From assembly GCA_913055635.1 (NCBI GenBank), contig CAJXLK010000019.1:1-64000 (forward strand): a stretch of 64,000 nucleotides of DNA, in the 5' to 3' direction. The position numbers and the translations under genes are program-made. Below, piece by piece: positions 10,742-56,244 of this stretch. Positions within the stretch are counted from its first letter, which is position 1, and each line of letters opens with the position of its first letter. The DNA is from an uncultured Bacteroidota bacterium. Lineage in GTDB: Bacteria > Bacteroidota > Bacteroidia > Bacteroidales > UBA12077. The notes under the pieces were generated by a model that made no database searches, was not told the DNA's origin, and was given only the letters and a program-made list of their open reading frames with translations.

Positions 10742-11075
10742 AACTGATGGGATTTACAGGATGCAAACGCTACAATTTAAGAAATTTTACCCCGCTAAAC
10801 AACCCCAGTAATGAACCGGGGACAAATAATCAGGGGCGATCAGTAGCTGGAAGCGGCGACCGGTGCTGAGGAGGAAGCGGCAATCACCACCGAGCAAACC
10901 TCGCGCAGGGGGAGATGGAGGCCATGGCCCAGGTGATAATCGCGGGTAAGCGAGCGGATTTTTTTGCGGGCGCGGCGGTAATTTTATCCGAACCCCGCTT
11001 AGCGGGGGGTGAATTTGACCCCGCTAAGCGGGGGGGGCTTACAGAAGGGCCTTGCCGGCGGGGTACCGCTGGGGG
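10742..11075. other. Gene-free stretch between the cytidylate-kinase-like gene and dinB
   Basis: These 334 bases hold two copies of the 15-bp palindrome (10993-11033). They also hold a minus-strand open stretch (10840-10983, 47 codons) whose translation, starting YRRARKKIRSLTRDYHLGHG, reads like protein but has no start codon and no family I know. It ends in a run of small residues and a stop at 10840. It may be the tail of a gene broken next to the palindromes, or chance in GC-rich DNA. Confidence 0.35.
10993..11033. repeat. Two copies of the 15-bp palindrome CCCCGCT(T/A)AGCGGGG
   Basis: Copies at 10993-11007 (TT centre half) and 11019-11033 (AA centre half), 26 bases apart and joined by a GAATTTGA-type spacer. 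The same palindrome recurs at 48.4 and 60.1 kb. It lies just after the dinB stop on the minus strand. Confidence 0.85.
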
Positions 11076-22544: not shown

Positions 22545-23540
22545 CTAGGGCACCTCAATGGCATTGAGGATTTGAGTTACAATATCTTCACTGGTCACAT
22601 TTTCCGCTTCCGCCTCATAGGACAACCCGATGCGGTGGCGCAGCACATCATGGCAAACAGCGCGGACATCTTCAGGGATGACATAGCCCCTTCGCTTGAT
22701 AAAGGCATAGGCTTTGGCGGCCAGGGCCAGGTTAATGCTGGCCCGGGGGGAGCCCCCGTAATTGATCATTCCCTGGAAATGGTCCAGTCCGTAGTGTTGG
22801 GGATAACGGGTGGCAAAGACAATATCCAGAATATAGCGTTCAATCTTCTCGTCAATATAGACTTCTTTGACCACGCCACGGGCGCGGATGATGTCGTCGG
22901 GCTGAACCACCTGGTTTGCGGTGGGAAATTCTTTGGCCAGATTCTGACGCACGATCAGCTTTTCTTCCTCCAACTGGGGATAATCAATAACCACCTTCAG
23001 CATGAAACGGTCTACCTGAGCTTCCGGCAACGGATAGGTCCCTTCCTGTTCAATCGGGTTTTGGGTGGCCAGCACCAAAAAAGGCTGATCCAGTTTAAAG
23101 GTCTCCTCCCCGATGGTAATCTGGCGCTCCTGCATGGCCTCGAGCAAGGCACTCTGTACTTTGGCCGGGGAACGGTTAATTTCATCGGCCAGGACAAAAT
23201 TGGTAAAAATGGGGCCCTTCTTGACCATGAACTGCTCCTTCTGCTGGCTGTATATCATAGTTCCCAGCAGGTCGGCCGGCAGCAGGTCGGGGGTAAACTG
23301 AATCCGGTTAAATCGGGCATCCACAATTCCTGACAGGGTGCTGATGGCAAGGGTTTTAGCCAGGCCCGGCACCCCTTCCAACAGTACATGCCCATCGGAT
23401 AGCAGCCCAACCAAAAGGCTCTCTACCAAATGCTTCTGCCCGACAATCACCTTATCCATCTCCATATTGATCATGTCCACAAATGAACTCTCATTGCGGA
23501 TACGTTCGTTCAATTCCTGTACATTGACGGTTTGATTCAT
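22545..23540 (-). CDS. MoxR-family AAA+ ATPase
   Basis: A 331-residue AAA+ protein: Walker A GVPGLAKTLAIS, Walker B VLADEINRSPAKVQ, sensor region LATQNPIEQEGTYPLPEAQ and the DRFMLKV arginine-finger segment. MoxR ATPases work with VWA proteins as chaperones in complex assembly. It is the first gene of the bat operon. Its upstream region (23541-24007) carries two members of the dispersed hairpin family. Confidence 0.95.
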   Translation of the reverse strand: MNQTVNVQELNERIRNESSFVDMINMEMDKVIVGQKHLVESLLVGLLSDGHVLLEGVPGLAKTLAISTLSGIVDARFNRIQFTPDLLPADLLGTMIYSQQKEQFMVKKGPIFTNFVLADEINRSPAKVQSALLEAMQERQITIGEETFKLDQPFLVLATQNPIEQEGTYPLPEAQVDRFMLKVVIDYPQLEEEKLIVRQNLAKEFPTANQVVQPDDIIRARGVVKEVYIDEKIERYILDIVFATRYPQHYGLDHFQGMINYGGSPRASINLALAAKAYAFIKRRGYVIPEDVRAVCHDVLRHRIGLSYEAEAENVTSEDIVTQILNAIEVP

Positions 23541-23571
23541 ACGATTATCTTTTATTTAACATGTTGGCCGT

Positions 23572-23669
23572 ATGGAACCTGCATGAATAATCATGTCCTT
23601 GTTGTGTAAGTCCTTGCATGCAGGTTTCATTGGTATATAGACTTATTAAAGGTTATCAATCGCTATGGT
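23572..23669. repeat. Dispersed hairpin element, copy A
   Basis: Arms ATGGAACCTGCATG (23572-23585) and CATGCAGGTTTCAT (23617-23630) pair over 14 positions with one G-T. The 31-base loop contains CCTTGTTGTGTAAGTC. The following 39 bases (ACTTATTAAAGGTTATCAATC and on) are also shared with the copy at 55975-56073, about 80% identical by eye over the whole length. Confidence 0.8.
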
Positions 23670-23702
23670 ATTACATCCTTAATTCTTCGCAGAAGGCCCG
23701 CC

Positions 23703-23758
23703 GAACCCACATGATTGATAAAAACAGCCTTGTTGTGTATTGACCCATGTGGATTGCA
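23703..23758. repeat. Dispersed hairpin element, second copy in the moxR-truA region
   Basis: Arms AACCCACATG (23704-23713) and CATGTGGATT (23746-23755) pair with one mismatch around a 32-base loop holding CCTTGTTGTGTA. The loop is shared with copy A while the arms differ in a complementary way. The rest of 23541-24007 shows no gene. Confidence 0.7.
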
Positions 23759-24035
23759 TATAAGTATATCGTTATTTAATTTATGGACTCAATGCAATTT
23801 GACATGATAAAACAATTACAACTGCCGGCGCCAGGCATGTCGGTGCTATATCATGGATTTTTTAACTTTCTGCAGAATTTTTCCCAAATTAATAACATTT
23901 CCACCAGAAATGAAAGTAATAACGGGCCAATGATAGGGTTTTATTCTGTTAATAAAAGTTAAAGTAATTTAAGGATTATTAAGGCTGCGGGGGGATAATC
24001 ATTCTGGGTGGCTTTCAAATGGAGAGATATTGTAT

Positions 24036-28404: not shown

Positions 28405-28464
28405 ACGGAATCCGCTTGTTTTATACATCGCCTTATTGTGTAAGTCATTGCATGCGGGATTCAT
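28405..28464. repeat. Dispersed hairpin element in the permease-amrA region
   Basis: Arms GAATCCGC (28408-28415) and GCGGGATTC (28454-28462) pair with a one-base bulge. The loop carries CCTTATTGTGTAAGTCATTG, nearly the loop of copy A. The rest of 28214-28601 is AT-rich with a small CCAGGT/ACCTGG hairpin near 28350 and no gene. Confidence 0.7.
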
Positions 28465-40559: not shown

Positions 40560-40751
40560 AAAATACTCCTTTATGAATTGTTCCGCTCCCAAACAGAGCG
40601 AAAAATGGGTTGAAAAGCTGAAATGAAGACTCAAATCTACGACAGTTTTTCAACATTATGAATATTCACCGGACAAATCTTGTTTTTTAAAATTCCAGCC
40701 ATTGGAAAAGTTTTTTTTCATAACTTGAATTTTATTCGCCCTGACGAAAAT

Positions 40752-40820
40752 AAATCCCACATACAGGAGCCTTCACAACCGGGCCATCTATAAAGCATTT
40801 GGGTTGTAAGTCGGGATTGC
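40752..40820. repeat. Hairpin element with enlarged loop, comB-comEC region
   Basis: Outer arms AATCCC (40753-40758) and GGGATT (40813-40818), with an inner pair ACAACC (40775-40780) and GGTTGT (40802-40807). GCCTT and TTGTAAGTC are split by an inserted stem-loop relative to the other copies. Probably the same family with an insertion. Confidence 0.5.
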
Positions 40821-40901: not shown

Positions 40902-40962
40902 ATGAAGCCCGGCAAGCACTGATCTGCACAGCAAGTAAAGGTATAAAGCATGTAGGTTTCAT
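40902..40962. repeat. Possible diverged hairpin element upstream of comEC
   Basis: Arms ATGAAGCC (40902-40909) and GGTTTCAT (40955-40962); the right arm and its CATGTA flank match copy A. The loop is not conserved. The remainder of 40560-40997 has no gene; an 18-codon frame at 40847 looks accidental. Confidence 0.35.
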
Positions 40963-48435: not shown

Positions 48436-48617
48436 GACCCCGCTTTAAGAGACCCCGCTTAGCGGGGGGGGTTATTTTGACCCCGCTTAGCGGGGGTAAG
48501 GACCCCGCTGTAAGGACCCCGCTAAGCGGGGTTGGATTTTGAGGACCCCGCTAAGCGGGGTGAGCTTAGGCGATATGACCCCGCTAAGCGGGGTCCTTAA
48601 AGCGGGGTCTTCCTAGC
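48436..48617. repeat. Cluster of CCCCGCT(T/A)AGCGGGG palindromes
   Basis: Five full copies at 48453-48467, 48481-48495, 48517-48531, 48546-48560 and 48579-48593. Half copies lie near 48438, 48502, 48601 and 48613. The first two have the TT form and the last three the AA form. Spacing is irregular (28, 36, 29 and 33 bases), unlike the regular array at 60.1 kb. Confidence 0.9.
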
Positions 48618-48633
48618 GGGGTTGGTCCATAAA

Positions 48634-53330: not shown

Positions 53331-55898
53331 TTATTCAATCAAACGACCGAAAAACAGGGCGTTCATAAACAGCTTGTTGGTACCATACCAAAAAGCTCTG
53401 AAATTCGGATTGGCTGTAAAAGAAATGATGTTGCCCCCGCCCAGTTCGGTAATATGACAATAAGGGGAATTCCCCAGGAGCTTTTGATTTTCCTCCGACA
53501 AATAGCCGCTCATCAGGGGATTCTGCTGTATCATCACCGGGGTATCATAAGGCTGAGGGGTATTTTGATAAATGGCCTCGTTGTCCTTGAACACAGGCAT
53601 CTTTTGCTCCCCCATTCCATAACCCACCGGGTGTGTCGGATCGACCGAAGCCCGGAGGATCACTCCGTTGATGGCCTGGGCCTGTAGGGCATTGCGCCTT
53701 TTGTTGTAAGGCAGGGTGCGGGTGGAATCGAGCCGGGAAATCTCCTTTTGTTCAAGATCACTCATGCCTTGATCCATAAGCCACTGGTTGGCCCGTTCCA
53801 GGGCCACCATCAAATTGCCTTCTTCCACCCAGCTTGTCAACTTCTTTTGGGTCGTCTTCCCCCACTCATAATTGCCATCGGGCAGGATGAGGGTATTGAA
53901 ATCAAACAGGTTGATTTGTTTCAGGGCTTCAGGGCGCACCATCACCACGGGAATCTGAAAACGGTGATCCAGCAGATGCCAGATCTCGCCGGATGAATAG
54001 CTGCTGGTACCTTCACCGGTGACCATTAAGATATGGGGTTGTTCGAGGCCGGCCATGCTCCAGCTGCCCAAATCCAGCCCCCGTGGGGTTAATGCGGTTT
54101 CCAGGCTGTAAATATCAATGCCCGATTGGTCGGCGACATCACGGACGATTTGGAAAACTTTTGCCGGTTGAGATTTTTGTTGGCGTGAAGAGATAAAAAC
54201 ACTGCCTGGCGGAAAAGCGACCTGGCCCTGTGGCGTTTTGGCCGTGAGCGATTTCTCTGCCGTCTTCAGGATCAGCCCTTTTTCCTGCAACTGATGCATG
54301 GCAGAATAAAGGTTATAGGGGTTGCTGCGCACCATGTAACCTACGGGGCTTTTTCCGCCCACCAGCTTACCTTCAGCGGAAGCGGTCTTATTGACCATTT
54401 TCCCCTTTAATTGATTGGCCACCTTTTGCTGATCAACGGCCTTATAGGTCAAATTAAAGGCCAGGGGCATGGTCCAGGCGGAAACATCGTAAAAGATGCT
54501 GTCCTCAAAACGGGTCCGCTTCTCAAACAAGCTCTTGATAAAACGATACTGAGGCTGATCGAGTGAAACCATGTAACTGGATTGCCGGGGAAAATCCTGA
54601 TTATCCACGGTATGATCGCTGGCTAAATGGTGTACCTGAATCTGGTGGAGATCCAGCAGCTCCAGGAAATGGCGAAGGCGGGTGGGGTCGTGCCTGGCCC
54701 GAAAAAGATAAGCTTTCACCGGGTCTTGTTGGTATTTTGCTGAAGCCTCTTCAAAAAATTCCCGCTGATAAGTATTCAGGTCGGCCCGATGCGCCATTGC
54801 GCCTTCCATGGTGGAAAGGGAAACGGTAAAATGGTTGCGGATGGATTCAGCAAAGGTTTGCCTGCCCTGGTCATTTTCAAGGACCTGCCCCATCACCCTC
54901 GATTGTTCAAACAAAATACCGATGCTGCCCTGGCCGTCGGGATAGGTCGATCCCTTGCCATAGTAAAAATCGTCAAATCCTTCTTCACTGAAATACAGGG
55001 ATCCTATCTCATCCAGGGCCCGGGCATGATGGTGGGATAATTTTTTGGTCAGGGTGAAATTGCGCTCCGGGGTTCGGGGATTGACCCGCTGGGGTTCGCC
55101 CGGTTGGAAAAAGAAGGTTGAATTGGAGCCCATCTCGTGGTGGTCGGTAACCACATGGGGTTTCCACGCATGGAAAAGTTTCAGCCGGGCTTTGGATTCA
55201 GGGTGCTGAGCCGGCATCCAATCGCGGTTCAAATCGAACCAATAGTGATTGGTGCGGCCTCCAGGCCAGGCTTCACGGAACTGTCGGTCACGCCTATCAC
55301 CCGTCTGAACCCGGTGCATATGCATATTGCTCCACTGGGCGGCCCGGTTAAAGCCATCGGGATTCAATACGGGGTCAACCAAAATCACTAGGCTGTCAAG
55401 CAAATGCTGAACCTCGGCAGAATGCGAGGCGGCCAGATAATAGGCCGTCAGCATGGCGGCATGAGCCGGGCTCGCTTCATTGCCATGTACACTATACCCC
55501 AGCCATACAATCAATGGCATATCCTGTTTCACATAAGCATTGCTGCGGCCATGGATATAATCCTGGTGCGCCTGGCGGATTTGCCTGAGGCGTTGATGGT
55601 TTTCGCGGGAAGTGATCGTAAGCATCTGCAAGGGCCGGTTTTCATGGGTGCGCCCGTATTCCTGGATGTCCACCCGCGGTGAACGTTCAGCCAAACCAGC
55701 CATATAACGCGATAGCTGATCATGCGAAAAATGCCACCAGCCAAAACGATGGCCACTGAAATGGCCCGGATAAGGCATATCCTGCCTGACAGCAGCGGTA
55801 TCTCCGCCTAAATAAAAGGACAGACCCTTTTGGGCAAAACCCATCGTAGTGGTAAAAATCAACAGCAGGGCAAGAAAATAGACACGGAAAAAGTTCAT
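53331..55898 (-). CDS. M14-family zinc carboxypeptidase, secreted
   Basis: An 855-residue exported protein. A signal peptide is followed by an M14 peptidase domain at about 55-370: the zinc ligands HGNEAS (HxxE) follow YSVHGNE, VDPVLNPDGF and WFDLNRDWM are standard, and ILFEQSR supplies the likely catalytic Glu. The remaining 450 residues include a class I glutamine amidotransferase-like region (HILMVTGEGTSSYSSGEIW and LILPDGNYEW), as in other large Bacteroidota M14 proteins. It presumably digests peptides outside the inner membrane. Confidence 0.88.
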   Translation of the reverse strand: MNFFRVYFLALLLIFTTTMGFAQKGLSFYLGGDTAAVRQDMPYPGHFSGHRFGWWHFSHDQLSRYMAGLAERSPRVDIQEYGRTHENRPLQMLTITSRENHQRLRQIRQAHQDYIHGRSNAYVKQDMPLIVWLGYSVHGNEASPAHAAMLTAYYLAASHSAEVQHLLDSLVILVDPVLNPDGFNRAAQWSNMHMHRVQTGDRRDRQFREAWPGGRTNHYWFDLNRDWMPAQHPESKARLKLFHAWKPHVVTDHHEMGSNSTFFFQPGEPQRVNPRTPERNFTLTKKLSHHHARALDEIGSLYFSEEGFDDFYYGKGSTYPDGQGSIGILFEQSRVMGQVLENDQGRQTFAESIRNHFTVSLSTMEGAMAHRADLNTYQREFFEEASAKYQQDPVKAYLFRARHDPTRLRHFLELLDLHQIQVHHLASDHTVDNQDFPRQSSYMVSLDQPQYRFIKSLFEKRTRFEDSIFYDVSAWTMPLAFNLTYKAVDQQKVANQLKGKMVNKTASAEGKLVGGKSPVGYMVRSNPYNLYSAMHQLQEKGLILKTAEKSLTAKTPQGQVAFPPGSVFISSRQQKSQPAKVFQIVRDVADQSGIDIYSLETALTPRGLDLGSWSMAGLEQPHILMVTGEGTSSYSSGEIWHLLDHRFQIPVVMVRPEALKQINLFDFNTLILPDGNYEWGKTTQKKLTSWVEEGNLMVALERANQWLMDQGMSDLEQKEISRLDSTRTLPYNKRRNALQAQAINGVILRASVDPTHPVGYGMGEQKMPVFKDNEAIYQNTPQPYDTPVMIQQNPLMSGYLSEENQKLLGNSPYCHITELGGGNIISFTANPNFRAFWYGTNKLFMNALFFGRLIE

Positions 55899-55974
55899 TC
55901 GTATAAAGTTTAATTAACAGTTTGTATTTCAGTATAATAATAGTATATCATCGTTGATCTCGGTAACCTCTGCC

Positions 55975-56073
55975 ATGGAACCTGCATGGAATAATCATGT
56001 CCTTGTTGAGAAAGTTACTGGAGGCAGGTTTCATGGGAATAAAGACTTATTAAAAGTTATCAATCAGTATAGT
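55975..56073. repeat. Dispersed hairpin element, copy B
   Basis: Arms ATGGAACCTG (55975-55984) and CAGGTTTCAT (56025-56034); loop with TCATGTCCTTGTTG. The downstream flank ACTTATTAAAAGTTATCAATC is shared with copy A at 23.6 kb, giving about 80% identity over roughly 98 bases by eye. Confidence 0.8.
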
Positions 56074-56112: not shown

Positions 56113-56244
56113 ATGGAGACCGCATGCTTTATGCATTTCATTGTTATGGGAGTGCGTGCATCATCCTGCTGTAAAGGTTCCTGCATGCTTTTTTATTTAA
56201 GGCAATGCAATGACTTGTAGTTCACTCTCATGCATGGGATTTCA
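56113..56244. repeat. Diverged members of the hairpin family
   Basis: ATGGAGACCGCATG (56113-56126) resembles the left arm, GGTTCCTGCATGC (56176-56188) a second left arm, and CATGCATGGGATTTCA (56229-56244) a right arm. AATGCAATGACTTG between them matches the reverse complement of the loop of the 28.4 kb copy. Confidence 0.4.

Follow-up and report, generated by a model that had tools for sequence, protein, structure and literature searches.

As described for IS608, Y1 HUH transposition is marked by a short guide, located at a hairpin's foot, which base-pairs with the cleavage word, by insertion behind a fixed word, and by the absence of inverted repeats (PMC5934647). The targets are TTAC^C for IS608 and TTGAT^G for ISDra2, the caret marking the break, with a preference for the next base (PMC5934647). 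One RAYT protein cuts at CA, the foot of the hairpin carrying GTAG or GTGG (PMC8266576). The rule given for REP sequences is a basal stem with a loop of 2–5 nt (PMC6006769). Among RAYT (TnpA-REP) proteins, subclass 2.6 / group 5, the one considered here, is found mostly in Bacteroidetes and has atypical flanking structures without GT[AG]G, copies of which occur elsewhere in the genome; its motifs are NH[LIV]H, WQ, and YIH[QN]NP (PMC6006769). PATEs (palindrome-associated transposable elements) are too short to hold a transposase gene and are reported to be moved in many cases by an enzyme acting in trans (PMC3119063, PMC7290912).

The stretch of DNA analyzed here, called the window, is 64,000 nt of contig C19 in the genome (G000; 4.08 Mb, 77 contigs) of an uncultured Bacteroidota bacterium. 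It contains members of a family of hairpins which, judged by sequence comparison, are the right ends of gene-less units of ~90 nt (short type) or 135–138 nt (long type). PATEs and REPs are the closest known kinds. Like PATEs, the units lack terminal inverted repeats and have a palindrome near one end and a fixed border word; they differ in showing one hairpin and one guide that seemingly serves both ends, in their head-to-tail arrays, in their frequent start-codon sites, and in that no IS200/IS605 parent was found for them. With the IS200/IS605 elements IS608 and ISDra2 they share insertion 3' of a short word, a putative guide at the hairpin foot that is complementary to the cleavage word, and a next-base preference (here TTCA^T). 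Unlike those elements, they have no transposase gene, a different target word, and, in the short units, one hairpin instead of one per end: the right hairpin is clear, and at the left end the only structure is a stem formed by the border word with the shared guide. As with REPs and their RAYTs, there is a tetranucleotide at the hairpin foot (GTGG in most units of genome G019 of the sister genus, ATGG in the window's genus), the copies are spread over the genome, and the resident RAYT has a Y motif as in subclass 2.6. In contrast to REPs, the units have a loop of ~30 nt and defined borders 90–138 nt apart, occur in direct arrays and not in inverted pairs, and do not lie beside the RAYT gene. 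Among the papers listed on IS200/IS605 elements, RAYTs, PATEs, and Bacteroidales start-codon repeats, no title or abstract opening gave an account of this family, and the sole match to its loop word, CCTTGTTGTGTA, in the literature text available was a plant qPCR study.

A preliminary description of the window reported two hairpins about 130 bases apart with a common loop word and unlike arms. The coordinates and arms were confirmed, and the spacing of the loop words is 131. The arms of copy 1, ATGGAACCTGCATG/CATGCAGGTTTCAT, could be extended to 14 nt with 93% pairing; those of copy 2, AACCCACATG/CATGTGGATT, are 10 nt with 90% pairing, that is, one mismatch. At no more than one mismatch the loop word occurs three times in the window (0.17 expected), a number reached in none of 100 shuffles. 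By themselves these two copies are thin evidence for a selected hairpin. The analysis below shows that the reported hairpin is one end of a larger unit, that copy 2 belongs to a decayed unit of the other type, and that the array containing them is inserted at the start codon of a gene. The positions of these and related features are given in Table 1. No Rfam family matched the window at its gathering score.

Table 1. Units, hairpins, and insertion site of the hairpin-unit family in the window
Feature	Position	Strand	Remarks
Insertion point TTCAT (ATGAA, moxR start codon)	23536..23540	-	CAT 23538-23540; unoccupied in three sister species
Break point TTCA^T	between 23539 and 23540		
Unit 1, short type, 90 nt	23540..23629	+	TACG..linker..CGTA-TGGA-hairpin-GGTTTCA
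Right-end hairpin of unit 1 (reported copy 1)	23572..23630	+	83.1 bits; guide 6-mer ATGGAA 23572-23577; loop word 23597-23608
Left stem of unit 1	23536..23577	+	TTCATACG (23536-23543) against CGTATGGAA (23569-23577)
Unit 2, long type, decayed, 129 nt	23630..23758	+	right end TGCA, not TTCA
Right-end hairpin of unit 2 (reported copy 2)	23703..23759	+	33.9 bits; loop word 23728-23739
Putative third unit, strongly decayed	23759..23853	+	ends ATCA; no model match; placed from the extent of the sister-species gap
Hairpin of a further diverged unit	28405..28464	+	58.3 bits
Long unit, 136 nt	55898..56033	+	at start codon of 855-codon ORF on - (CAT 55896-55898); hairpin 55975-56034
Decayed hairpin adjoining the preceding long unit	56113..56164	+	22.7 bits
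Decayed hairpin	40750..40809	-	33.2 bits
Decayed hairpin	40902..40962	-	31.6 bits

The claim that the hairpins form a dispersed family was borne out; further copies, whose absence would have spoken against it, are abundant. In the window's own genome there are 119 matches to CCTTGTTGTGTA with at most one mismatch, compared with 36 for the reversed word, and at least 78 of the matches listed are exact. The covariance model of genome copies that had been proposed as a check was built from 83 copies (model R1, alignment A1). It found at least 93 matches in G000 and 86, 67, 43, and 21 in the four other genomes of the genus (G001 to G004), the genome with 21 being 57% complete; copies are thus present in all five. 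In the sister genus there were 48 matches in G019 and 0 to 8 in each of the remaining 19 genomes, and overall 20 of 59 genomes had a match. Within the window, R1 marked four good copies (starting at 23572, 55975, 28405, and 23700) and decayed ones at 40750 (−), 40902 (−), and 56113 (+). No copy was present among IMG/VR viral contigs, PLSDB plasmids, or INPHARED phages, where three short phage matches with E 0.9 were at chance level. Several G000 contigs, for example C4, C6, C12, C25, C26, C53, C62, and C63, end in or near units; the true copy number and the frequency of longer arrays are therefore perhaps underestimated.

Comparison of the flanks showed that the similarity between copies reaches well past the hairpin and then breaks off sharply. 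Each unit starts behind TTCA and ends in TTCA, the right-hand TTCA being mostly followed by T. Among 89 unit candidates at G000 loci, TTCAT was found 56–59 or 97–104 nt before the loop word in 60, and at +33/+34 from the loop-word start in 61; the others had no exact TTCAT at the border positions. The bases preceding TTCA vary, no gene was seen inside the units, and the unit ends, TACGATT.. and ..GGTTTCA, are not inverted repeats. A classical MITE, moved by a DDE transposase whose 4–5 bp target duplication happened to favor TTCAT, would account for the direct repeats of TTCA(T) at both borders. We consider this highly improbable, because the repeat hardly ever departs from one word, the ends are not inverted repeats, and close neighbors in the list of loop-word matches from the own genome share one orientation.

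Some units adjoin one another, and the TTCAT that ends one unit is then the TTCAT that starts the next. Collected strand by strand, 70 arrays comprised 54 single units, 12 doubles, and 4 triples. Left and right halves are variously combined into mosaics, with the exchange around the loop word; the A-type left half, for example, was joined to three right types 12, 6, and 3 times, in a typing that left 22 right halves and 19 left halves, out of 89 each, without a class. Some loci showed variant forms: L011 and L064 have a sub-family with a longer hairpin (ACCATGACAAAATAATCAT..ATGATGATTTTGTCATGGA), loop CCTTTTGTG, and the same TTTCAT end; L018, L026, L055, and L060 have units with the loop CCTTTTGTG.TAGTCGG; and at ~1400–1520 of L012 the loop word has other surroundings, in short repeats around GCCATCTGTGCCTTATTGTG behind a terminator-like hairpin.

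Head-to-tail arrays of units that each end in a hairpin resemble integron cassettes. Integron attC sites have a GTT core, and in them the structure of the hairpin outweighs its sequence; the cassettes are likewise arranged head to tail. Gene-less mobile units could accordingly owe their movement to another enzyme that recognizes folded single strands, such as an integron-like tyrosine recombinase acting on attC-like hairpins. The mosaic halves joined around the loop, and the finding that no convincing unit lies near a Y1 gene at the loci scanned, would also agree with this. The border word of the units, however, is TTCA and not the GTT core, the bases before TTCA vary, and no cassette genes were seen in the units. 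We regard an enzyme of this kind as unlikely.

Evidence for movement came from the moxR gene, at whose start codon the window's array lies. In three genomes of the genus (G001, G002, and G004) this site is empty: the moxR sequence runs to the start codon and is followed by 5–10 bases and then by the conserved AATTTTT.CCCAAATTAATAA, which in the window follows the array. The aligner misplaced the moxR end, so the joint was determined by visual inspection; G003 had no match there. The word at the empty start was TTCAT in G004 only, and TCCAT in G001 and G002. The gap between the window and its sister species at moxR is ~330 bp, more than the two reported units occupy, and the remainder may be a third, decayed unit. 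At the gene start near 55.9 kb, G001 and G004 have no unit, the flanks being too diverged to show a joint, and the G002 contig stops short of the site. We consider the mobile nature of the units well supported.

Start codons are frequent sites of insertion. The left border was clean in 42 of the 70 arrays, and in 27 of these 42 an ORF of 60 or more codons starts there; for comparison, 40 of the 270 TTCATs in the window are the start of such an ORF. In none of the 21 clean-border arrays for which this could be tested was an ORF split by the array. Because TTCAT reads ATGAA on the other strand, surviving insertions would very often lie on a start codon. The bias may thus reflect survival rather than aim, since a unit inserted at TTCA^T rebuilds ATGAA on both of its sides.

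The sister-genus genome G019 allowed the break to be placed more exactly. Most of its units begin with C and not with T. Behind 19 of 29 left borders lay an ORF that either had at least 54 codons or stayed open as far as the locus end, and 18 of these read GTG. At mnmE, where 12 of 17 other loci could be read by motif, all 12 start with ATG and have Ile as the second codon; in G019 the unit is followed by GTG-Asn-Asn-Asp, and an ATG lies beyond its other end. Because of these GTG starts and the arrangement at mnmE, the break is best placed between the A and T of TTCAT, the first base being the unit's own.

The preliminary description had claimed covarying arms and a fixed loop. Covariation within the window's genus was examined with A1, whose 83 rows were not chosen by pairing: 80 came from the 87 listed places, and three had two mismatches. 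Seven places were left out: L012, L013, and L025, which have none of the family's flanks; L026, which lacks its right half; L057, whose right end is altered; and two places of L070, removed by hand, one of which is a fair copy. In A1, 86.7% of cells were paired, compared with 24–46% when the arms were slid, and 38 cells had changes on both sides, compared with 19.8 in shuffles (0/500), mainly at two central pairs. Stricter measures were not clearly beyond the shuffles: double-change pairs were 5 against 4.0 (138/500), and pair types 17 against 15.0 (43/500). On A1, RNAalifold kept only four pairs, in part owing to mosaic copies, which combine halves of different types.

Across species, changes in one arm are accompanied by changes in the other, as in CCCTCATG/CATGAGGG, CATTCATG/CATGAATG, and CATCCATG/CATGGATG. 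Alignment A5 contained 24 diverse hairpins, five from G000 and 19 of 37 model matches; the 18 matches left out included weak ones (L100, L101). Because its rows were picked by hand for diversity and are mostly model matches, A5 leans towards structure. In A5, 7 of 14 pairs changed on both sides, compared with 3.6 in shuffles (0/500); 94.9% of cells were paired, compared with at most 51% in slides; and there were 15 further pair types against 12.1 (8/500). In two rows the first guide base and the last right-end base changed together from A-T to G-C. Covariation of the arms is therefore broad across species and, within the genus, real but narrow. The loop proved fixed inside the window's genus but not beyond it, the loops of G019 being CCATTTTTGTGAAC-like. 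That the hairpin is selected, in RNA or in single-stranded DNA, is supported; it is, however, not a free-standing RNA gene but one end of a mobile unit.

The left end of the short units was examined in alignment A4, which held 59 units from six genomes (29 from G019, 19 from G000, six from G001, two each from G002 and G004, and one from G023) out of 75 found. Its finder accepted only units bordered by TTCA on either side and with 8 or more of the 10 right-stem pairs, and among candidate left borders the one with the most left-stem pairs was taken; the pairing percentages are inflated by these choices, and A4 adds nothing to the test of the insertion word, because TTCA was required. In the left stem, TTTCA plus the unit's first four bases face four bases plus TGGAA. 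Pairing in this stem was 87.6%, with 44 both-side cells compared with 18.4 in shuffles (0/500); in the right stem it was 98.0%, with 60 cells compared with 25.9 (0/500). Slides of either stem gave at most 53.3%. As in the other alignments, these both-side counts include related copies, and the stricter measures did not clearly beat the shuffles (left, double-change pairs 3 against 2.4 and pair types 7 against 9.2; right, 4 against 3.4 and 8 against 8.9).

The 6-mer (A/G)TGGAA at the hairpin foot can pair with either the left or the right TTTCA, and the two stems compete for it. TTCA and TGGA are complementary with one G.T and almost invariant, TTCA having been required by the A4 finder. Between the first base of the unit and the one preceding TGG, the combination was T-A in 29 of the 59 units, C-G in 22, and T.G in six, with no pair in two; because the C-G state is almost confined to G019, it may represent one or a few events. 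The base behind the right-hand TTCA was T in 54 of 59. In predicted DNA folds, unit 1 and the G001 unit L083 formed adjacent left and right hairpins, the left one containing the ATG of the 6-mer, and in the G019 unit L224 this ATG paired with the right end.

We lean, somewhat beyond an even judgment, towards the reading that these are non-autonomous, gene-less transposable units moved as single strands, with one shared guide and cutting at TTCA^T, by a Y1 HUH enzyme supplied in trans, perhaps the resident RAYT. A Y1 mechanism is likely; the RAYT as the moving enzyme is a guess by elimination. As proposed, a Y1 HUH single-strand transposase would bind the folded top strand, and the guide, TGGA within (A/G)TGGAA, would pair in turn with the left and the right TTCA. 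Both cuts would be made after TTCA, and the excised unit would enter a TTCAT behind its TTCA. An inserted unit has TTCAT once more at its right end, so that further units could insert there and give head-to-tail arrays. The start codon would be rebuilt by the unit's first base, T giving ATG and C, in the species of G019, giving GTG. The enzyme would act in trans, and the resident RAYT, with the motifs NHFH and YIHQNP, is the best candidate.

RAYT homologues with NHFH and YIHQNP were found in all five genus genomes and in G019, which has a second homologue with YIHLNP. The Y motif YIHQNP fits the printed consensus of subclass 2.6, and the HUH motif NHFH lies outside it (NH[LIV]H). With PF01797 at E≤5, the matches in G000, G001, G003, and G004 were only RAYT-like genes and one short stretch; in G001, G003, and G004 the sole Y1 matches were the RAYT, except for that stretch, of 61 residues, in G004. 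An earlier result at E≤1e-3, that three carrier species were without any Y1 gene, was ruled out, one gene each being found by the looser limit and the NCBIfam RAYT model. The presence of a RAYT was rejected as the reason for differences in copy number: of 25 genomes in the genus and sister genus, 24 have homologues, many of them with no or few units.

The Y1/RAYT loci scanned, those of the carriers included, held no convincing unit, and 30 RAYT loci gave only chance-level matches, both in L305 (E 0.38 and 0.98). No autonomous relative was found, and these loci held no parent IS that combines the ends of the units with a Y1 transposase gene. The neighbors of the RAYT genes are other palindromes or none. 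In G002 and G003 the genes (L274, L268) lie inside long arrays of complex GGTCGGACGGG / CCGGTCCGACC repeats. A separate REP-like family with the palindrome ACCCCGCTTAGCGGGG occurs in clusters in the window (10992–11035 and 48436–48622) and also near the own genome's RAYT gene (L071, L321). That gene is split between contigs C51 (L071 start) and C64 (L321 start); because the contig ends overlap by exactly 77 nt, the split is an assembly break and not a broken gene.

The units could instead be host-selected regulatory elements, in which a 5'-leader mRNA fold or a short leader peptide controls the downstream gene, spread by recombination. The clean left ends on ORF starts fit this reading. In 52 of the 59 short units, moreover, an in-frame stop follows the right-hand ATGAA before the host start, and in 37 of the 59 all three frames are closed within the last 45 nt, compared with 17% in whole-unit shuffles; the frame count is weak evidence, because it includes related copies and the shuffles extended to the AT-rich linker. 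The − strand of unit 1 folds as RNA better than chance (z −2.52; + strand −1.17), in a set of fold energies that was not decisive (as DNA, −2.21 for + and −1.70 for −). A fold or peptide selected by the host does not readily explain the fixed-word borders, the empty site, the arrays, the unlike genes behind the units, or copy numbers that range from 0 to at least 93 between related species. One-base insertions and deletions, found among units between the loop and the guide, also shift the frame; for this reason a protein-coding meaning of the loop word (Leu-His-Asn-Lys behind ATGAAA on the − strand) is not supported. Taken together, we judge the regulatory reading improbable, more so than an integron-like enzyme and less so than a MITE.

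Within the preferred reading of single-strand transposition, a more specific version can be formulated. A single-strand unit with one DNA guide for both ends would be aimed at start codons, would rebuild the start and could turn ATG into GTG, would place stops just before it so that ribosomes that begin at the displaced original start end there and restart at the rebuilt one, and would be moved by a Bacteroidetes RAYT near subclass 2.6. This full combination is possible but doubtful, and we rate it slightly above the integron-like alternative. More generally, natural changes of a guide along with its expected partner bases would be direct evidence that single-strand transposons select their sites through DNA-DNA pairing, and the family provides a candidate both for the substrate and for the target word of a Bacteroidetes RAYT. 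Insertions on start codons give genes new leaders, which bears on both annotation and expression: in one species, that of G019, apparent GTG starts were present at 18 of the 29 borders examined.
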